The position numbers and the translations under genes were made by a program. The notes beneath the pieces are model-generated. The model did no database searches and was not told where the DNA came from. It saw nothing but the letters and a program-made list of their open reading frames with translations. DNA of 64,000 nt from NCBI RefSeq assembly GCF_001936575.1, contig NZ_MSMP01000013.1, positions 1 through 64,000 of the forward strand, written 5' to 3'. Origin of the DNA: Tenacibaculum agarivorans. GTDB lineage: Bacteria; Bacteroidota; Bacteroidia; Flavobacteriales; Flavobacteriaceae. Every line of letters begins with the position of its first letter. Position 1 is the stretch's first letter. Of the stretch, positions 25,807-37,017 are shown piece by piece.

Positions 25807-27753
<1,947 letters not shown>

Positions 27754-27784
27754 ATCGAAAGATCAATTATTTAAATATTAGTTC

Positions 27785-27818
27785 AAAAAAAAGCCTCAAG
27801 TATACTTGAGGCTTTTTT
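27785..27818. terminator. Bidirectional terminator between gyrB and the convergent small gene
   Basis: AAAAAAGCCTCAAGTA and TACTTGAGGCTTTTTT form a perfect long palindromic hairpin with T-runs on both strands. It serves gyrB on the plus strand and the four-gene operon that ends at 27825 on the minus strand. Confidence 0.92.
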
Positions 27819-27824
27819 AGTTTT

Positions 27825-27992
27825 TTAAAATCCACCTCCAGGTGGTTCTGGAGAAGCAGCTTGTGCTTTTTTAGGGTTTAATATTAAGTATGTTCCTAAT
27901 GCAGTTAATGCAGCATACTTTCCATAAGTACCTAGCTTTTGTAATGCTTCTTTACGAGTCATTTCATCTTTATATTGATTATTTTTTTTCAT
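27825..27992 (-). CDS. Short exported peptide precursor (55 residues)
   Basis: This short gene encodes 55 residues starting at an ATG 22 bases after the T9SS repeat protein. A basic region with MTRKEALQKLG (residues 11-21) is followed by a hydrophobic stretch (about 27-39, YAALTALGTYLIL), then NPKKAQA and ASPEPPGGGF. The AQA-A junction is a good signal peptidase I site, so cleavage would release a Pro/Gly-rich peptide of about ten residues. TRKEAL resembles a weakened twin-arginine motif (RK in place of RR). The codon use is like its neighbours and the terminator follows directly. Function is unknown; the export prediction is inference. Confidence 0.7.
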   Translation of the reverse strand: MKKNNQYKDEMTRKEALQKLGTYGKYAALTALGTYLILNPKKAQAASPEPPGGGF

Positions 27993-28013
27993 TATAGTTG
28001 GGTTAGAAGATTA

Positions 28014-31000
28014 TTATTCTATAATTACTTTTTTAGTTACAATGCCCCTATCTGAGGTTAGTTTTACTAAATATATACCTGCAGCAAAAGAAGGTAATTC
28101 AATTGTGCTAATTCCATTAGAGTTAATCTGAGTATTAACTAAACTTTTACCTAAAGTAGAATATATTTTTACATTAGCTTCAGTCTGTAAACCAGCAATT
28201 GTAATTTCTTTACTTGCAGATTTATATATACTCACTTCAGATACGTTGTTTTTAATATCTTCCGAACTTAAACTTTTAGCACTTGTATGGATGTAGAATC
28301 TTCCTATTCCATTTGTTGCGTCAGTTAATGAGATGCTATAATTTGTGTCAGTAAGATTCGTAAAAGTGCTTTCAATTCTATCTTCTAAATAAATGTGTAA
28401 TCCGTCAGGTAAATTTTCAGAAATAGCAGAAAAAGTAATTTGATTTCCTGATTCAGCTATTAAACCAACAGGAATAACCATGGTATTATGATCAACATTA
28501 GGTAATGTTTGAATAGCTAAGTTTCGACCATCGTTATCGTTTAATAATTGCGTATAAACTGTGAAATTATCATTTGTACCTCCAAATATTTTTGAATCAT
28601 ATCCATTATCAAAACCTTTAGTTTTTCCTTCAAGATAGAAAACTTTGGTTGCTTTTTTGTTTCCGTTACTTTCAGCAAATAATTCAAAATAAGATTTTGG
28701 AGTTTCTCTTAAGAATGTATCAGAAGATTGATGACTCTGATTTGCTGTAGAAAATGTAACATTACCTGAACCACTAGCTTCTACAAAGAAACCTTGGGCA
28801 GGAGCTATTTCGATTGAGCTCATGTTGTTATAAGTAATATATTGTGAGCCATCCCATAACCAAACTGTTTCTTCGCTTAGTAATCCCGTATTAGCGGTTG
28901 CAAAAGTGCTTGAATTAACAAAAGAAGTAAATGGATTACCTATTAAGTTAAAGTTATTTCTAGTACCTGTAGCAATAGGAAAGTTAATATTAGTAGTATT
29001 TACAGATCCAGTAATAGAAACGTCTCCGGTTGCGGCTAATTTCATAGATACTCCTGCACCTGAAACCAAAGGACCAGTTGTGGCTGAAGTAGCATAAACC
29101 CATGGATCAGTACCATTATTTGTAAATGCGCCAATACCAATATTTGAGCCACTACCAGTTGCAAAGTTATGACTAGGATTATTAATAATATCTTCTTGAG
29201 TTTCACCAGATACTGGAGCAGAAACTAAATACCAATTTGTTGTTGGTAAGTTTCTTGTGTATGTAGTTGTACCTGTTACTGATGCATTTGCAATTAAGGA
29301 TGCACCAGATGCTATACTAATGGTACCCACAGTTACAGCCGAAGAAATAGTAGGGTAACTGGTTAAACCAGAAGGTATAATAACATCACCAGTGCTATGA
29401 GGTGCGACATTTGTATTCCAGTTACCAGGTTGTTCCCAAGAGTTATTTATTGCCCCCGTCCATGTATATGTACTAAAAGTAACCGTTACATCAAAAGTAC
29501 TTGAATTTGGACAAGTGCCAGCAGTTGTGTAAGTTACTGTGTATGTATTAGGTGTAGAAGCAGAAAGGTCTATAATTCCATTGGAAGCAATACTTAATCC
29601 AGGAGTTGAACTAAAGCTTCCTCCTGTTAATCCACTAATTGTTGGAGAAGGATCAGCATCGTCAATTGTATATGAAGAAGAACCGTAACTAAAAGAAGCA
29701 TCATCTAAAGCATTAATAGTTACACTTGCTGTACTGGAATTCGGGCAAGTTCCTGCTGTAGTATATGTTACTGTATATGTTCCAGGAGTTGAAGCGGATA
29801 CATCAATTGTACCGTTTGTAGCAATACTTAATCCTGATGTTGAGCTAAAACTTCCACCTGTTAGTCCCGAAATTGTAGGAGAAGGATCGGAAGCGTCTAC
29901 ACAATATGAAGAAGCTCCATAAGCAAAAGAAGCATTATCTAAGTTATTAATTGTGATGCTCGCTGTACTTGAATTTGGACAAGTCCCTGCTGTAGTGTAG
30001 GTAACAGTATATGTCCCAGCAGTAGATGCTGATACATCAATTGTACCGTTTGTAGCAATACTTAATCCTGATGTTGAACTAAAACTTCCACCTGTTAATC
30101 CTGTAATAGTAGGAGAAGGATCTGAAGCATCTTTACAATATGAAGACGAACCATAACTAAAAGAAGCATCATCTAAAGCATTAATCGTTACACTTGCTGT
30201 ACTAGAATTCGGGCAAGTTCCTGCTGTAGTATATGTTACTGTATATGTTCCAGGAGTTGAAGCAGATACATCAATTGTACCGTTTGTAGCGATACTTAAT
30301 CCTGATGTTGAGCTAAAACTTCCACCTGTTAGTCCTGAAATTGTAGGAGAAGGATCGGAAGCGTCTACACAATATGAAGAAGCCCCATAAGCAAAAGAGG
30401 CATTATCTAAGTTATTAATTGTGATGCTCGCTGTACTAGAATTAGGACAAGTTCCTGCTGTAGTGTAGGTAACAGTATATGTTCCAGCAGTTGAAGCAGA
30501 TACATCAATTGTTCCATTGGTAGCAATACTTAATCCTGATGTTGAACTAAAACTTCCTCCTGTTAATCCTGTGATTGTAGGAGAAGGATCAGAAGCGTCT
30601 TTACAGTAGCTAGAAGAGCTGTAACTAAAACTTGCATCGTCCGCAGCGGTGATTGTTATAGATACATCTTCAGAACATCCTACTGAAGCGGTATAAGTTA
30701 CAGTATAGGTATTTGGTGTAGAAGCAGACAAATCAATGGTTCCGTTAGAAGCTATACTTAGTCCAGAAGTAGAACTAAATGTACCTCCTGTAGTTCCTGT
30801 TATGGTAGGGCTTGGGTCTGATCCGTTAACACAATAGGATGAAGAAGCATAAGAAAATGAAGCATCACAAGGGGCAGAACAAGTTACACTCACGCCAGAG
30901 TAGTCAGAAGGAGTGATGCCTAAGTTTGTCCCGTCGTTAACAGACCAGTTATTTCTGTTGTTTATGGAGATGCTTAAAGCAGATGAATTTCCAGTTAAGG

Positions 31001-31610
31001 TACCTGTGTATTTTGCATTATTTCTTTCTGTTGTTCCTGGAGGGAATAATCCTACAGCATTGGTGCCATTTGTAAGTCCTGGTGGTAGAGAAGATCTTGT
31101 AGTAGAAGTAGAAGTTAAGTTCGAGTTCCACCCATCTGTATCAAGAGATATATCTCCATTCAAAGCAGTGATAAAAGTAATGTCTGCTGCTGATGCAGGT
31201 TTAGCGGTGGCAGCTTGGTATATTAGTATTTGATCTCCGCCAGATAAATTGAAGCCAGTACCAGCTAGGGTTACAAGGCTAATGCTACCTCCTCCTGTTA
31301 TAGCAAAGGAATCAGTGGTGGTTTCAATGATACTGACAATAGTCCCACAAGATAATCCGCCTGCAGGAGCGGTATATTGGAAATGAGGTTCTGTATTTCC
31401 AACCCAAGTATTTGTAATATCACTCCAACCTTGCTCTGTGAAAAAAATTACTTCACTTGCGGGTATATCGGTTAATGTAATAAAACTAAAGCCATCAGGG
31501 GAATCAGTATTGTATCCTATTATAGCAATATCGCCAGCAGCTAATTGTGAAAAAACCTGAGGGATATTGAGTATGATAGTAAAAATTATAAACAGTATTG
31601 TTTTTTTCAT
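28014..31610 (-). CDS. Large T9SS type A sorted surface protein with six 78-residue repeats
   Basis: A 1198-residue secreted protein with a signal peptide (residues 1-21). Residues 24-245 form a globular N-terminal domain (AAGDIAIIGYNTDSPDGFSF, FFTEQGWSD) resembling the lamin-tail-like modules of Bacteroidota surface proteins. Residues 249-715 are six Ig/PKD-like repeats of about 78 residues, Ser/Thr-rich with one Cys pair each. Residues 718-1110 are a beta-rich region (TWTGAINNSWEQPGNW, NFNLIGNPFTSF) and the last 80 residues a type A sorting domain ending GIVTKKVIIE. It should be displayed on the surface or released through the type IX system; an adhesin-like role is likely. It is the third gene of a four-gene operon. 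Confidence 0.88.
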   Translation of the reverse strand: MKKTILFIIFTIILNIPQVFSQLAAGDIAIIGYNTDSPDGFSFITLTDIPASEVIFFTEQGWSDITNTWVGNTEPHFQYTAPAGGLSCGTIVSIIETTTDSFAITGGGSISLVTLAGTGFNLSGGDQILIYQAATAKPASAADITFITALNGDISLDTDGWNSNLTSTSTTRSSLPPGLTNGTNAVGLFPPGTTERNNAKYTGTLTGNSSALSISINNRNNWSVNDGTNLGITPSDYSGVSVTCSAPCDASFSYASSSYCVNGSDPSPTITGTTGGTFSSTSGLSIASNGTIDLSASTPNTYTVTYTASVGCSEDVSITITAADDASFSYSSSSYCKDASDPSPTITGLTGGSFSSTSGLSIATNGTIDVSASTAGTYTVTYTTAGTCPNSSTASITINNLDNASFAYGASSYCVDASDPSPTISGLTGGSFSSTSGLSIATNGTIDVSASTPGTYTVTYTTAGTCPNSSTASVTINALDDASFSYGSSSYCKDASDPSPTITGLTGGSFSSTSGLSIATNGTIDVSASTAGTYTVTYTTAGTCPNSSTASITINNLDNASFAYGASSYCVDASDPSPTISGLTGGSFSSTSGLSIATNGTIDVSASTPGTYTVTYTTAGTCPNSSTASVTINALDDASFSYGSSSYTIDDADPSPTISGLTGGSFSSTPGLSIASNGIIDLSASTPNTYTVTYTTAGTCPNSSTFDVTVTFSTYTWTGAINNSWEQPGNWNTNVAPHSTGDVIIPSGLTSYPTISSAVTVGTISIASGASLIANASVTGTTTYTRNLPTTNWYLVSAPVSGETQEDIINNPSHNFATGSGSNIGIGAFTNNGTDPWVYATSATTGPLVSGAGVSMKLAATGDVSITGSVNTTNINFPIATGTRNNFNLIGNPFTSFVNSSTFATANTGLLSEETVWLWDGSQYITYNNMSSIEIAPAQGFFVEASGSGNVTFSTANQSHQSSDTFLRETPKSYFELFAESNGNKKATKVFYLEGKTKGFDNGYDSKIFGGTNDNFTVYTQLLNDNDGRNLAIQTLPNVDHNTMVIPVGLIAESGNQITFSAISENLPDGLHIYLEDRIESTFTNLTDTNYSISLTDATNGIGRFYIHTSAKSLSSEDIKNNVSEVSIYKSASKEITIAGLQTEANVKIYSTLGKSLVNTQINSNGISTIELPSFAAGIYLVKLTSDRGIVTKKVIIE
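29465..30866 (-). repeat. Six tandem 234-bp coding repeats with a 468-bp higher-order unit
   Basis: The repeat units of the surface protein are 78 codons long. Units 2-5 alternate between two types (TITG/AGTYTV and TISG/PGTYTV), so near-identical DNA recurs every 468 bp, for example from 29701 and from 30169. This points to recent duplication of a two-unit block. The first and last units are more diverged. Confidence 0.85.
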
Positions 31611-31650
31611 GTTGTTAGGATTAAGTTAATATATTATAAATATATGATTT

Positions 31651-32751
31651 TTAATGGCATAGATAAGAATTGTGCCATCCTTTATTTTCGTCGTTATCTG
31701 TTGTTTTTATAATGTTGTTATGTGTAAGCGTTTCTGTATATTGAAACTGATATGAGTTTTCTACCCACTTTATTTCCCATAAATGTTGATTTGGAGAGAA
31801 TCTATTTGTTGTAATATCGGTATTTATAATTCCTCTTGGTCCTAATACCTTATTTAGGGTTGAGTTTGTTTTCTTTTTAAGTTTATTGTTGATAATTAAT
31901 CCATTTTCAAATCCTAAAACGGAAAATATACTTGGGGTTTTATTATACTTTTCTTTGTATGATGCAATAAAGTTAATATTGTCATCAGTCATTAAATTAC
32001 TGTGCCAAGAAGATATGTATTTTGTAGTATCAAATAATTGAGGATACTTAGAAAGTATTTTGTTATTTATAGAAAAAGGTAATGTGTAAAGTGGTGTTGA
32101 GCTGTTAACTTTATTTTTATGTAAAAAATCAGCGTGTTCCTCTGCATAAACTCCATTGTAAAAAGCAAATAATACATCAGGTTTAGTAACGTCTACAAAT
32201 TGAGTCATTAATTCAGCTTCATTTTCTCTTGGATGTAATGGAGTTACAAAATGTCCTGAGAATTCAGCTTCATTTTTTTCATATAAAGCATCTTGTATAG
32301 CTTCAATAAAACCATAACCAGATTCATAGAAACATGTAGAAGTTCCTACATGTTTAATTCCTTTATCTATAAAGTATTTACCAAGTGAATACGTAGCGTT
32401 ATATAAATCTAGAGAGTTGCAGAAAATATGTTGTCTACTGTCTAAGTTTAAAGGTTTGGTAGCACCAAAGTCTGTATAAACCAATGATTCTTCCATGTTA
32501 TCAAAAAAATCTAGTACTTTACTTAAATCTCGATGTCCTAGAATTCCTGTAGTTACTACTACTTCTTCTTGATTTATTAGTTTTTGAGATGCATTAACTA
32601 TGTTTTCAGCTTCATTCCCTAATCCTATACCTTCAATACATAATTTATAATGATCAGATAATGATAACTTTAATCCATTCATGAATTCTTTTGCCATGGT
32701 TGGATATTGTTTAGACTGTGGAAGTAGTACCCCGATTTTTTGTAATTCCAT
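31651..32751 (-). CDS. Periplasmic-binding-like protein without signal peptide
   Basis: A 366-residue protein with the type I periplasmic binding fold of branched-chain amino acid receptors: ELQKIGVLLPQSKQYPTMAKEFMNGLKL at the start, VVTTGILGHRDLSKVLDFF, HVGTSTCFYESGYGFIEAIQDAL and KPDVLFAFYNGVYAEEHADFL. The ATG at 32751 was chosen because it begins right before the first strand; the open frame to 32853 overlaps the collar gene and adds no signal peptide. With no export signal or lipobox and no ABC permease nearby, it is predicted to be cytoplasmic, which is unusual for the fold. It lies 58 bases after the collar gene and 40 before the surface protein. Confidence 0.8.
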   Translation of the reverse strand: MELQKIGVLLPQSKQYPTMAKEFMNGLKLSLSDHYKLCIEGIGLGNEAENIVNASQKLINQEEVVVTTGILGHRDLSKVLDFFDNMEESLVYTDFGATKPLNLDSRQHIFCNSLDLYNATYSLGKYFIDKGIKHVGTSTCFYESGYGFIEAIQDALYEKNEAEFSGHFVTPLHPRENEAELMTQFVDVTKPDVLFAFYNGVYAEEHADFLHKNKVNSSTPLYTLPFSINNKILSKYPQLFDTTKYISSWHSNLMTDDNINFIASYKEKYNKTPSIFSVLGFENGLIINNKLKKKTNSTLNKVLGPRGIINTDITTNRFSPNQHLWEIKWVENSYQFQYTETLTHNNIIKTTDNDENKGWHNSYLCH

Positions 32752-32809
32752 AATAAAATAATAGTTGAAATTTAAGGCCCATATAGAATGAGCCTTAATT
32801 GATAATGTT

Positions 32810-33397
32810 TTAGCTTCTAGAAGGGAAAATTCCAACCATAGCAATACATACATACATACCTAAAAATGGATTTCTAATATTGAATGATTGACTACCACCA
32901 GCATGCGTGATTGTTCCAGAGGCTGATCCAGTAACTGTAACACCTCCTAATTTACCTGCAGTACCACTTCCTGGTTCTCTATATATTTCAGGAAGACTTG
33001 CATCTTCTGTACCTAAAATATTCTCACCGTTACCTGTTTCATTTGTAGCACTACCATTATTTAGTGTAGAAACACTTACATCAATAGTACTTGTTGGATC
33101 AAAGATGTGGTTATGTGATGGCATTTCAAGAATATTTAAAGTCTTGTATTCTATACCACCTCTTTCACCCCAAGTAATTGTAGAAAGCCCAGCCCCGTGG
33201 CCTACACCAACAATACTACGCCCTCTTAAGTCTGGTAATGCAAAAGTTGTTCTCCCGTCTCCACCATAAGTAGTGCCTAATAAAGAAAATAAAGCAGAAT
33301 GAGAAGCAATAGCTAGTAATTGGCCTGAGCAAGTTGACCACCCACGCGGTGCAAAATTAAATCCGAATGTTTGAATTTGTCCTAAAAATGGATCCAT
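32810..33397 (-). CDS. Phage tail collar domain protein (microcystin-dependent-protein type)
   Basis: A 195-residue protein of the tail-collar family, typified by FLGQIQTFGFNFAPRGWSTCSGQLLAIASHSALFSLLGTTYGGDGRTTFALPDLRGR; GWSTCSGQLL and FALPDLRGRSIVGVG are the family signatures. The middle is Thr/Asn/Gly-rich and the end is NPFLGMYVCIAMVGIFPSR. Homologues are found both in phage tail fibres and as stand-alone bacterial genes of unknown role. No other phage gene is present here, so it is read as the first gene of the bacterial operon that continues to 27825. Confidence 0.92.
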   Translation of the reverse strand: MDPFLGQIQTFGFNFAPRGWSTCSGQLLAIASHSALFSLLGTTYGGDGRTTFALPDLRGRSIVGVGHGAGLSTITWGERGGIEYKTLNILEMPSHNHIFDPTSTIDVSVSTLNNGSATNETGNGENILGTEDASLPEIYREPGSGTAGKLGGVTVTGSASGTITHAGGSQSFNIRNPFLGMYVCIAMVGIFPSRS

Positions 33398-33526
33398 AAT
33401 AATAAAGTTTAAAAGTTAGTAATTTTATAGATAGATTACACTTTTTAATGCTTGATTAATAAAGAGTAATATGTTGTCCCCAATCAAATTTAATTAGGAA
33501 AAAAACTGAAGTGCTATTTTTTTTCT

Positions 33527-33673
33527 TGAGTGTTGGTTTTTTGATTATAGGCGTTTACATAAAAGGAATAAGTGTGTAACGATAAAGCCTATTTATTGGT
33601 TTTTGGGACGTGAGCGTGTGATAACTGATCACAAGCGTGCCATATTCAGTTATGAGTGTGGATTTCTATATAA
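33527..33673. promoter_or_regulatory. Five AGYGTK motifs in a 21-bp register upstream of the collar operon
   Basis: AGTGTT at 33529, AGTGTG at 33571, AGCGTG at 33613, AGCGTG at 33634 and AGTGTG at 33655 are spaced by 42, 42, 21 and 21 bp, so all five lie on the same helical face. The last three are adjacent 21-bp units. A palindrome TGTGATAACTGATCACA (33617-33633) overlaps the array. The region is 130-260 bp upstream of the collar gene in the 315-bp gap 33398-33712, whose remainder is AT-rich without other signals. A multi-dimer regulator site is inferred. Confidence 0.45.
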
Positions 33674-33712
33674 AAAAACAGAAAATCTGATTCTAAAAAT
33701 AGAATGGAAGAT

Positions 33713-35215
33713 CTAGTTTTTCTTCCAGAAAAAAGGAGTAAATAAAATAAGTACAGTAAATAACTCTAAACGTCCAATTAACATTAAGAAAGAACAGAAC
33801 AATTTGGCACTATTAGATAAGTGGGCAAAATTATCTACAGGACTAACACTTCCTATAGCAGGACCGATATTTCCAAGAGAAGAAGCGCAAGCACCTAGAG
33901 CAGATTTAATATCTAATCCCATAAGTGCTAAGACTACAGCACCTACAATAAAAATTAACATGTATAAGATGAAGAAAGAGATGATATTAAAAACAATAGT
34001 TTGTTTTACAGCTTTGCCGTCGTAACGAACAGGAATGATTGCATTAGGATGTAATGTCTTTTTAAACTCTAAAAAGCTATTTTTTAACATTACTATGTGT
34101 CTCACAACCTTTACTCCTCCAGATGTAGATCCTGCAGAACCACCAACAAAAAATAAAGCAAAGAAGATGGCGGTGATAAAATAACTCCACATAGTAAAAT
34201 CAGCGGATACAAAACCAGTAGTAGTAACTACTGAAATAATAGAAAATAGAGCGTGTCTAAAGGCACTTTCAGTTTTGCCTAATATCATTGGGTGTTCTAT
34301 CGAACTTTGTAACGAGGGATCTTTAAAAAAGAGAATAGATACTGTTACTAATATGGTTATAAATAAAATACCTAAACCATAATATTTAAATTCTTCACTT
34401 TGTATTACTTTTCGAATTTTTCCTTTTAAAGCAAAATAGGTAAGTACGAAATTGGTACCAGCTATAAACATGAAAAAGATGATAATATACTGAACTAAAG
34501 GCATGCCGTTCCAATAGGCAACACTAGCATTTTTAGTAGAAAAACCTCCAGTACTAACAGTAGCCATTGCATGATTTATCGCATCATACCAAGTCATTCC
34601 AGCAACTTTTAGTAAAAGAAATTGAGTAATTGTTAATCCAACATAAATTAACCATAAACGTTTGGCGGTATCTGTAATTCTAGGATGTAGCTTATCTGCA
34701 GATGGGCCTGGTGCTTCAGCCATAAATAGCTGCATACCACCAATTCCTAATAGAGGTAAAATAGCAATAGTTAATACAATAATTCCCATTCCTCCAATCC
34801 AATGTGTTGCACTTCTCCAGAACAAAATACCTTTAGGCATACTTTCTATATCTGTTAAAATTGAAGAACCAGTAGTAGAATACCCAGAAATGGTTTCAAA
34901 AAGTGCATTAATAATAGAAGGTATACTTCCAGTCATTAAATAAGGTAACATTCCAGTAATGGTCAATGTAATCCAACCTAGTGTTACAATTAAATAACCT
35001 TCTTTTTTTTGTAAATTCTTATTTGTTGGTTTGTTGAAAAAGTACAATACAGCTCCTAAAGAAATAGTCATTATACCTGAACTTAAAATTCCTAAAACAA
35101 CATCAGTTTCTTTAAAATAAAAACTAAAAGGAATAGCTACCCACATGAATACACCATTCAAGATGGCTGTGACTCCTAAAAAACGAAAGATGAGTTTAAG
35201 ATTTAAGTTCTCCAT
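33713..35215 (-). CDS. trkH: Potassium uptake protein TrkH
   Basis: TrkH is the pore of the Trk/Ktr potassium uptake system in the inner membrane. The 500-residue protein has about ten or more membrane helices and the four pseudo-repeated pore loops ISGYSTTGSSI, ATVSTGGFSTKN, VVTTTGFVSADF and ASSLGNIGPAIG. GSAGSTSGGVKVVR, a family signature, is present. Its start codon overlaps the trkA stop by one base, consistent with coupled translation of pore and regulator. Confidence 0.96.
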   Translation of the reverse strand: MENLNLKLIFRFLGVTAILNGVFMWVAIPFSFYFKETDVVLGILSSGIMTISLGAVLYFFNKPTNKNLQKKEGYLIVTLGWITLTITGMLPYLMTGSIPSIINALFETISGYSTTGSSILTDIESMPKGILFWRSATHWIGGMGIIVLTIAILPLLGIGGMQLFMAEAPGPSADKLHPRITDTAKRLWLIYVGLTITQFLLLKVAGMTWYDAINHAMATVSTGGFSTKNASVAYWNGMPLVQYIIIFFMFIAGTNFVLTYFALKGKIRKVIQSEEFKYYGLGILFITILVTVSILFFKDPSLQSSIEHPMILGKTESAFRHALFSIISVVTTTGFVSADFTMWSYFITAIFFALFFVGGSAGSTSGGVKVVRHIVMLKNSFLEFKKTLHPNAIIPVRYDGKAVKQTIVFNIISFFILYMLIFIVGAVVLALMGLDIKSALGACASSLGNIGPAIGSVSPVDNFAHLSNSAKLFCSFLMLIGRLELFTVLILFTPFFWKKN

Positions 35216-36561
35216 TAGTTAAATAAATCTTCTACAGTTGAAATTGCTTCTGGTAAACAGAAAACGATAACATGATCACCAGCTTGAATATGCATATCTC
35301 CAAAAGACATTAATGCATTACCATTACGTATAATTCCTCCGAAAACAGCTTCCCTAGGAAAACGCAGTTCTCTAATAGGTTTTTCAGTAACTTTTGCTCC
35401 GTGTTGAACTTCAAATTCGAAAACTTCAGCATCTATATTATGTAGGTTTGCTAAAGCTAGAATTTCTCCTTTTCGGATATGACGGAAAATATTACTAGCT
35501 GCAATAAGTTTTTTATTAATAAGAGTGTCTATACCTATAGTTTGAGAAATGCTTATATAATCCATATTCTCTACTAAAGCCACTGTTTTCTTTACACCTT
35601 TAGATTTTGCGACTAAACATGACATGATGTTTGTTTCAGAATCGCCTGTAACAGCAATAAAAGCATCCATGTCTCTAATATTTTCTTCTTCAAGTAGCTC
35701 AAGATCTCTTCCATCTCCATTAATCACTAAAGTAGATCTTAAATCTTCAGCTAATGTTAAAGCTTTATCTTTATTTTTCTCAACTAATTTTACTTTAAAG
35801 TTGTCTTTACATAAATTACGAGCCGTCTTTTTTCCAACACTACTTCCTCCTAAAATCATTACATTTTTAATGGCAAGATGTTCTTTACCAATAATAGGAT
35901 AAAGTTTTTCAATACTATAATTAGGTACTGAAAAGTATACCTGATCGTTTAATTTATATTGTGTGTCTCCTCTAGGAATAATAGTTTGTGCAATTCCTTC
36001 TCTCTTTATAGCTATGGTAATAAAATCTACCATATTAAATTTTTCTTTGGCTTCTTTTACTGAAAGATCTAAGATAGGAGATTTATATCCTAAGGTAGTT
36101 CCCATTACATTAAAAAGACCATTTTCGAAAGCTACAGTATCATTAAAAGAAGATTGATGTAGTAGTAATTTTATCTCTTCAGCGGCTAATTCCTCTGGTG
36201 AAATCATAAAGTCTACACCAAAATCTTTGAAATCAATAATATCACTACTTAAAAATTCAGGATTCTTAATTCTAGCAATAGTTTTTTTAACTCCCAAAGC
36301 TTTTCCTATAACAGCAATAGTAAAGTTAGTGTTTTGGTTTTCAGTAACTGCAAGTAATAGATCAGTTGAACTAATTCCAATTTCTTTAAGAAGTTTTATA
36401 GATGTTGCATCACCTCTTTTAGTAATAACATCTAAGTGGTTATTTATATAACTTAGCTTGTCACCATCTAAATCGACGATGTAAGTATCTTGAGATTCGT
36501 AAGATAGCAGCTTAGCCAGATGAAACCCTACATCACCAGCTCCGGCTATTATAATTTTCAT
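35215..36561 (-). CDS. trkA: Potassium transporter regulatory subunit TrkA
   Basis: TrkA is the cytoplasmic ring that gates TrkH in response to nucleotides. The 448-residue protein contains two RCK modules: an N-terminal one starting MKIIIAGAGDVGFHLAKLL and a second starting VMILGGSSVGKKTARNL near residue 230, each followed by a TrkA_C domain. NAD(H)-binding acidic residues (YIVDLDGDKL, VINGDGRDLE) are visible. The ATG at 36561 places the Rossmann strand at the N-terminus; the frame open to 36645 adds a non-conserved extension. It is the first gene of the trkA-trkH operon. Confidence 0.95.
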   Translation of the reverse strand: MKIIIAGAGDVGFHLAKLLSYESQDTYIVDLDGDKLSYINNHLDVITKRGDATSIKLLKEIGISSTDLLLAVTENQNTNFTIAVIGKALGVKKTIARIKNPEFLSSDIIDFKDFGVDFMISPEELAAEEIKLLLHQSSFNDTVAFENGLFNVMGTTLGYKSPILDLSVKEAKEKFNMVDFITIAIKREGIAQTIIPRGDTQYKLNDQVYFSVPNYSIEKLYPIIGKEHLAIKNVMILGGSSVGKKTARNLCKDNFKVKLVEKNKDKALTLAEDLRSTLVINGDGRDLELLEEENIRDMDAFIAVTGDSETNIMSCLVAKSKGVKKTVALVENMDYISISQTIGIDTLINKKLIAASNIFRHIRKGEILALANLHNIDAEVFEFEVQHGAKVTEKPIRELRFPREAVFGGIIRNGNALMSFGDMHIQAGDHVIVFCLPEAISTVEDLFN

Positions 36562-37017
36562 ATCAAAAATTAATGAATAAGTATACAAAGATACATTTTT
36601 AACTGTAAAAATCGAATTGATTTTTACTATTTCGATTGAAAACAAGAAGTATATGAGAGAGTGCTATGTGTAAGTATTCCCCTAGGAGAAAAAAAAATAG
36701 TATGGACTTATTTGGTGTTATTTTTGTTTAGTGCCATAGGGAATAGAGGGATTGAAGAATATCGTTGATTTGTATAAATTAGATTATCAGAAAATGTTAA
36801 TAATTTTTTGTATTTTTTTGAAAATCATTTAGTTAAATATGATTTTTAATCGTAGTTTTGTAATCCCAATATATACGAACATATACAGTTAAACACTGTT
36901 GATTTAGTAAAAATTAAATTATTCTTTTTTAAATGTCAGTTTTCTAGGCAAAATAAGTACTAAATTCCCTATTGATTCTTTTTTGCAGTAATAAAAGTAT
37001 TATCAATTTTAAAAGAA
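36562..37017. other. Gene-free region between trkA and the first AraC gene
   Basis: This 456-bp AT-rich stretch holds no credible reading frame. A TAGTTTTG box at 36853-36860 could serve the AraC gene, and a TCCCCTAGGA element lies near 36678. No repeat or RNA structure was recognised. Confidence 0.4.

Follow-up and report, generated by a model that had tools for sequence, protein, structure and literature searches.

What does a 55-codon reading frame encode when it lies directly behind the gene of a large secreted protein in Tenacibaculum agarivorans, and is it a gene at all? The window that we analysed is a stretch of 64,000 nt from this genome, and within it the frame stands last in its run of genes and faces gyrB:

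27825..27992, minus strand: gene of a 55-aa precursor peptide (ATG at 27992, stop codon at 27825-27827)
27787..27818, no strand assigned: terminator with a 14-bp stem and a T tail, between the peptide gene and the convergent gyrB (25816-27753, plus strand)
28014..31610, minus strand: partner T9SS cargo of 1198 aa, with Ig-like repeats, a juxta-CTD module and a type A sorting domain

The peptide gene starts 21 nt past the stop of the cargo gene and the terminator stem sets in 6 nt past the peptide gene's own stop, an arrangement that bears out the earlier note on this DNA, which had taken the frame for a real operon gene of 55 residues. Searching the whole genome with the peptide returned 14 matches at E ≤10, of which 11 are full-length copies (among them the window copy), two are weak and one is a broken remnant; the full-length copies (E 8.6e-33 to 8.6e-20) are without exception free of internal stops. 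The peptide is also found in 84 of the 97 sampled genomes of the genus (66 of the 69 good ones), which have between 1 and 17 matches, and in 33 of 299 sampled genomes of the family, mostly with one match each; together with the 11 uninterrupted copies, this spread places the frame beyond chance. In the sample of the order, the peptide profile matches 11 of 395 genomes, two of which lie outside the family (62% and 66% complete), and among the best 80 of 184 matches (73 loci) the nearest relatives belong to Tenacibaculum, Polaribacter, one Cellulophaga and a few unclassified genomes.

To a set of 102 distinct copies, chosen by regular expression, one further copy from the own genome was added (103 in total), and per-site conservation and pN/pS statistics rest on the 93 copies of equal length. 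Median pN/pS is 0.18 across 4278 pairs, pN exceeds pS in none of these pairs, and 16 of 44 aligned sites are invariant; the synonymous bias that the earlier note had named in advance as the check on its frame is thus present throughout. The shortness of the gene and the DNA similarity among its copies are what a chance frame or an RNA element would share with it, but that reading is refuted by the codon statistics, and with 0 of 11 full-length own copies carrying an internal stop we give it next to no credence. As judged by selection on these sequences, the 55-codon frame is a real protein-coding gene, and the peptide is one of a widespread family of very small precursors, as yet without a name, whose genes accompany a single class of proteins secreted to the surface of marine flavobacteria. 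Pfam, NCBIfam and PADLOC scans gave no match to the peptide. There is no sign of a viral origin, since 73 viral-contig stretches fit a pattern and none was confirmed.

The usual companion of the peptide gene is a cargo of type IX secretion (T9SS) with a type A sorting domain, represented in the window by the following feature:

28017..28205, minus strand: T9SS type A sorting domain (TIGR04183) of the cargo, 54.4 bits against a cut-off of 23

Ahead of this domain, the window cargo carries several near-identical Ig-like repeats (PF16403 in four stretches, Big_3 in five). A same-strand upstream gene ends within 150 nt of the peptide gene in 92 of the 102 distinct copies (gap of -1 to 140 nt, median 21 nt), and TIGR04183 is matched by all 92 of these genes (C-terminal 90 residues, E 0.001). 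The ten copies lacking a type A gene within 150 nt comprise two at contig edges, two that are second tandem copies, one with unreadable upstream sequence, one from the own genome whose type A gene lies 189 nt upstream, one from the own genome that precedes its cargo, and three for which no type A gene was found upstream. Among the 11 own copies, nine have a cargo directly upstream (5 to 189 nt), one stands before its cargo and one has an unreadable upstream region. The own genome holds 118 type A sorting domains in all. Its broken peptide remnant (L020:1481-1620, contig C28) adjoins a type A sorting-domain gene that is devoid of the module described below.

The peptide-linked cargos share a second segment:

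28254..29366, minus strand: juxta-CTD module, cargo residues 749-1119, common to peptide-linked cargos

The cargos vary in length and N-terminal make-up and have in common some 376 residues just before the sorting domain. The window module alone matches 101 of 106 cargo ORFs (phmmer, E 1e-5), and a profile iterated from it, which was built from matches within the same ORF set, matches 102 of 106; coverage is at least 70% in 97 of these 102, and the other five are short ORFs. The module is present in all 84 linked cargos that are complete and readable, out of 94 copies with an upstream gene within 200 nt. Independent figures come from the single-sequence count, from loci L033-L062 and from the own genome: in L033-L062, outside the profile building, 26 of 27 upstream genes bear the module and the 27th is mostly unreadable. 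The 106 ORFs include 22 at family level, which a regular expression had selected from 29 loci and of which four are module-free. Among 46 control ORFs classed as unlinked, 32 have a module match and 14 have none, and several of the 46 are truncated or unreadable linked cargos. Of the 118 sorting-domain genes in the own genome, 14 carry the module (15 matches), and an intact peptide gene adjoins 10 of these 14, as opposed to 0 of the other 104 (Fisher p 1e-11, from a table compiled by hand). The genome also has two full-length module cargos with no adjoining peptide gene, and one pair in which the order is reversed, with the peptide gene first.

The five modules that we scanned gave nothing above cut-off in Pfam or NCBIfam. 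The AlphaFold2 model of the module (pLDDT 93.9) consists mostly of strands; Foldseek found no PDB match to it at E ≤0.001, and VIA-align, which barely tested residues 1-222, gave a best Z of 4.9 (rmsd 3.3, 90 residues aligned). In the family sample, where few first-look candidates were scored per genome, the module is found at E <1e-45 (a line set post hoc, with the list already in view) in 34 of 299 genomes, including all 29 genomes that have the kinase introduced below. The other five strong-module genomes comprise two with the peptide only (G370, G378) and three with neither peptide nor kinase (G162, G217, G387), of which G217 is 99% complete, and weaker relatives of the module occur in 76 further genomes.

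Conservation divides the peptide itself into two parts, with one residue standing out in the second:

27858..27992, minus strand: leader, residues 1-45, ending in AQA, delimited by per-site conservation in the 93 equal-length copies; presumed recognition leader for the RRE kinase
27828..27857, minus strand: tail, residues 46-55, ASPEPPGGGF, with S-P-x-x-P-G-x-(G)-F conserved
27852..27854, minus strand: codon of Ser47, the predicted phosphorylation site, Ser in 103 of 103 copies

The AQA site is present in 101 of 102 copies, and the leader would presumably be removed after it. The PGxGF end of the tail is likewise kept (Pro40, Gly41 and Phe44, by alignment column, in 93 of 93 equal-length copies, Gly43 in 86 of 93), so that the AQA site and the short Pro/Gly tail stand as the earlier note had them, and the end whose conservation it proposed to test is conserved. 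Ser47, two residues past AQA in the window peptide, is invariant across all 103 copies and also occurs in 26 of 28 readable frames of family-level loci L063-L091 (one frame being from the own genus). The two exceptions are a frame in G378 (89% complete), which has Tyr instead, and one in G390 (92% complete), which stops before the site; the kinase was found in neither genome. As a counter-case, G231 (84% complete) keeps the Ser in its peptide, and kinase and module matches are absent from it. As far as such small numbers go, this pattern is the one predicted for a kinase substrate. At one family-level locus (L078, genome G109), the short tail is replaced in two peptide-like frames by a long extra one, which in one of the frames is rich in Lys-Pro-Gly repeats.

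A basic start, a hydrophobic stretch and an AxA site would suit a plain exported peptide with a Tat or Sec signal, to which the kinase cluster would be an unrelated neighbour, and the earlier note had indeed read a signal peptide here. The AQA site survives from that reading and its ordinary character does not: the 15-residue hydropathy peak is only 1.09, and the leader is nearly invariant, with an identity among seven own copies (87%) on a par with that of the tail (83%). The motif S/T-R-K-x-A-L near the start is, to our eye, reminiscent of a Tat box, which is ruled out by R-K in place of R-R in 93 of 93 equal-length copies and by an RR pair anywhere in just 1 of 102. Given also that the kinase co-occurs with the peptide across genomes, plain export is very improbable. 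Instead, the low hydropathy peak, the near-invariance and a leader-binding-like fold in the partner kinase suggest that the segment ending in AQA may be a recognition leader for an enzyme, with or without export activity.

In the own genome, the kinase gene (G000:C30:37533-38639) lies outside the window, where it and an NTP_transf_5 gene adjoin the peptide copy on contig C30. A kinase-like gene of about 375 aa is found in 19 of the 29 family-level loci L063-L091 (1.5 kb flanks), and in the longer stretches L165-L178 the peptide is followed by the kinase gene and then by a gene of about 350 aa in 13 of 14; the latter is NTP_transf_5 in all three proteins scanned (PF14907, E 6.5e-30 to 4.5e-37). 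HprK-related models match the kinase weakly: the two kinases scanned score 57.1 and 41.8 bits against HprK_rel_A (TIGR04352), below its cut-off of 200. Its AlphaFold2 model (pLDDT 88.7) begins with three strands and three helices (residues 1-72, placed through secondary structure), and Foldseek matches the model to the leader-bound RiPP recognition elements (RREs) 5v1u, 5v1v and 6jx3 (E 0.006 to 0.13, probability 1.00); for the two lasso RREs 5v1u and 5v1v, four chains align over 70 columns (rmsd 2.1-2.5 Å, TM by target 0.66-0.69, E 0.006-0.03). The RRE-like assignment is based on fold, with Foldseek E-values above 0.001; PqqD gave a sub-threshold match in one of four N-terminal kinase segments and none in the other three. 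The C-terminal part resembles HprK/P (1ko7, Z 11.8, rmsd 2.8, 127 aligned; 2qmh, Z 11.6), and PEP carboxykinases match the model as well or better (Z up to 13.1) and cover more of it. All 20 of 20 kinases share an Asp-Asp pair, the Walker-A Lys and a His that precedes Walker A, and G-D-x-D is invariant in 17 of 17 NTP_transf_5 proteins; a His-Lys-Asp-Asp set is reported for peptide-tailoring kinases (PMC9266682). Modelling thus suggests an RRE-like fold joined to an HPr-kinase-like domain in a single protein. PADLOC gave no match for the kinase and NTP transferase of L154.

Two further features of these clusters stand beside this. In seven clusters from other genera, NTP_transf_5 is followed by a protein of about 195 aa (L165:11740-12333, L166:11762-12346, L167:11819-12391, L168:7187-7783, L173:11694-12272, L174:7044-7655, L175:12083-12679), for which Pfam called an outer-membrane beta-barrel (PF13505) in one of five scanned and which has no relative in L092-L164. 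L177:3580-5503 holds five nearly identical 119-aa frames in tandem.

Peptide and kinase travel together. The kinase occurs in 81 of the 97 genomes of the genus, where hand tallies (as used for both tables) give 78 genomes with both, six with the peptide only (all ≤90% complete), three with the kinase only and ten with neither (p 1.5e-7); in the family sample minus the own genus (297 genomes), the corresponding figures are 26, 5, 1 and 265 (p 2.9e-31). For the kinase in the family and phylum samples, too, few first-look candidates were scored per genome. The phylum sample yields a kinase match at E 1e-10 in 10 of 395 genomes, five of them nearly full-length and all within the own family; the other five cover only part of the HprK region. 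A single kinase match is present in 78 of the 81 genus genomes and two in three, one of which is a single gene in two pieces. With one kinase and up to 17 peptides in a genome, the kinase must act on several of them in trans. A stop codon interrupts the kinase match in four genomes of the genus (G015, despite its 17 peptide matches, G025, G030, G091) and in three of the family sample (G144, G151, G244), and in G032 the match is split into two pieces; decay and sequencing error are alike possible. We conclude that the peptides are probably precursors tagged by a dedicated kinase.

The matching parts in phospho-RiPP pathways are an RRE that binds the leader, an HprK-like kinase that phosphorylates a Ser and an NTP transferase that decorates the phosphate. 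By analogy, the present system would work like such a pathway, its pairing with T9SS cargo being what differs. The closest known kind (PMC13381572) are the linear polyphosphorylated peptides (LPPs) of Bacillota, which have in common with it a short precursor, an RRE, an HprK-like kinase and an NTP transferase. The phosphorylated residue of LPPs, core Ser3 (AQSNWK), is the target of LppK and, like Ser47, lies near the cleavage site (PMC13381572). The same report gives the RRE of LPPs as a separate gene, whereas here the RRE-like part and the kinase form one protein, and a leader motif YxxPxVLxHQxIxFETxxS, whereas [YW]xxP occurs in 0 of 102 copies here and in 0 of 18 peptides of a set from 17 of the 29 loci L063-L091 plus the window. 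As it has neither a discrete RRE gene nor the YxxP motif, the system does not class as an LPP. LPP clusters are further described as carrying an SpI-like peptidase and an MsbA-like exporter (PMC13381572), neither of which was recognised by eye in the ORF tables of L165-L178; and the precursor here, unlike LPPs in that description, pairs with T9SS cargo.

Lasso peptides of the paeninodin and pseudomycoidin type offer a second likeness, in that an HprK-like kinase phosphorylates a conserved Ser; in pseudomycoidin, PsmK is the kinase and PsmN, annotated as a nucleotidyltransferase, is linked to a hexose on the phosphoserine (PMC9266682, in the sections drawn on here). There the Ser is C-terminal and the peptide cyclised (PMC9266682, same sections), whereas lasso enzymes (macrolactam synthetase, B2 peptidase) were not recognised by eye here in the ORF tables of L165-L178. 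LPPs and paeninodins are said to be restricted to Bacillota in the cited portion of the LPP report (PMC13381572). We recognised no description of the peptide or of a T9SS-linked HprK peptide system in the openly licensed literature; a survey of 2,680 Flavobacteriaceae-group genomes (PMC10734526) mentions RRE-containing clusters, none identifiable, from the part cited, as the present one. The kind of pathway would accordingly be known, and its role with T9SS cargo would be new.

Partner genes directly downstream of a cargo have a precedent in T9SS type B cargo with its PorP/SprF shuttle (PMC12618676 and PMC9143113, in the parts cited), from which the present pairs differ by their type A sorting domain and by a peptide partner of 55 aa that matches nothing in Pfam or NCBIfam. 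This precedent raises the question of whether the peptide is an unmodified accessory factor that aids secretion or localisation of type A cargo in the manner of PorP/SprF, the kinase being only regulatory. The peptide gene closely adjoins its cargo, much as porP/sprF-like genes are often found directly downstream of type B cargo genes (PMC12618676, in the part cited). Among the seven complete own pairs, however, mean identity falls from 86% in the peptide core to 40% in the modules, 33% in the CTDs and 23% in the N-terminal parts, although the set is too small to exclude peptide-cargo co-evolution. This contrast between core and modules speaks against the accessory factor, as do a co-occurring kinase that has an RRE-like part and the Ser being the site that is kept. 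We regard the accessory factor as rather unlikely. From the same identities, the peptides look interchangeable.

Two further neighbours of the window copy lie upstream of the cargo:

31651-32853: Peripla_BP_6 gene of the same operon
32810..33397, minus strand: phage-tail-Collar-domain protein (PF07484, E 9.7e-27), first gene of the run and a possible associate

The Peripla_BP_6 gene has no BLAST relative (E 1e-5) in the other compared loci, leaving unsupported the suggestion of the earlier note that the peptide is a ligand of this binding-like protein, and we reject that candidate. The broader notion of a free secreted signal or antimicrobial peptide, whose tail is sensed by or acts on other cells, draws on the short Pro/Gly tail and the AQA site; moreover, the cited portion of the LPP report describes the roles of LPPs and paeninodins as unknown and a patchy spread as typical of biological-conflict genes (PMC13381572). 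Against it stand the up to 17 matches per genome, placed beside one cargo class where tested, and the same lack of relatives of the binding-protein gene. With 11 copies in one genome tied to a single class of T9SS cargo and to one kinase acting in trans, the free-standing signal that the earlier note had entertained is doubtful, and a stand-alone secreted peptide is, in our estimate, unlikely.

The Collar protein has relatives, with 36-51% identity, at 18 of the 73 loci L092-L164, and the one in L092 immediately precedes a module cargo. Collar, cargo and peptide may therefore form a group that recurs. The order across 25816-36645 of the window is a gene pair that we take to be trkH- and trkA-like, then the Collar protein, the binding protein, the cargo, the peptide and the convergent gyrB. 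In L170, the same trkH/trkA-like pair is followed by cargo, peptide, RRE-kinase and NTP_transf_5, and in L096, L106 and L110 the gene after the peptide is again gyrB; the site of the window copy may be an old one from which the kinase pair was lost.

We therefore favour, as the likely though not secure reading, a RiPP-like precursor whose Ser is phosphorylated, and perhaps glycosylated, and which is supplied with each module-bearing T9SS cargo. The leader would be bound by the N-terminal RRE-like part of the genome's single RRE-HprK kinase, whose kinase domain would phosphorylate the invariant Ser in ASPEPPGGGF. NTP_transf_5, the product of the gene beside that of the kinase, would then attach a sugar or nucleotide to the phosphoserine, after which the leader would be cut off at AQA and the tail exported. 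By way of the juxta-CTD module, the modified tail would serve the upstream cargo, in the simplest case as a tag or anchor supplied to the surface in stoichiometric amount. The gene family and the selection on it, the pairing with module-bearing type A cargos, the co-occurrence with the kinase, the predicted folds, the conserved catalytic-type residues and the invariant Ser are computed results; phosphorylation, glycosylation, cleavage and export are inferred, and so, with the least assurance, is the surface role of the tail. One peptide copy per cargo gene suggests a supply proportional to cargo, i.e., a part that is consumed, as a tag or an anchor would be, and the surface anchor that the earlier note had listed among its options is possible.

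A more specific form of anchoring can be conjectured. In Porphyromonas gingivalis, an amide bond ties T9SS cargo to SAGA, a sugar of LPS that bears a seryl group (PMC13086638); there the seryl group sits on a sugar and does not belong to a ribosomal peptide, and the parallel is conjecture. By analogy, PorU might join the cut C-terminus of a module cargo to the new N-terminus of the peptide, next to the phospho- or glyco-Ser, making the peptide a sortase acceptor in which a ribosomal phosphopeptide would replace the seryl sugar as the link between cargo and surface polymer. We consider this unlikely as it stands; if true, it would explain why every cargo gene is accompanied by a peptide copy of its own, the peptides being interchangeable and one being consumed per cargo.

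Whatever its chemistry, the peptide gene is a clear case of a conserved small gene outside the coverage of Pfam and NCBIfam. If the favoured reading of a kinase-tagged precursor is right, RiPP-type chemistry would here serve protein secretion and yield no free natural product, with one kinase acting on many interchangeable peptides, and phospho-RiPPs would extend to Bacteroidota. It would also point to a role for a module that has no Pfam or NCBIfam family and provide a handle on how this flavobacterial class of type A cargo is finished or held at the surface; indeed, the peptide system hints at an unknown route for finishing or anchoring surface proteins.
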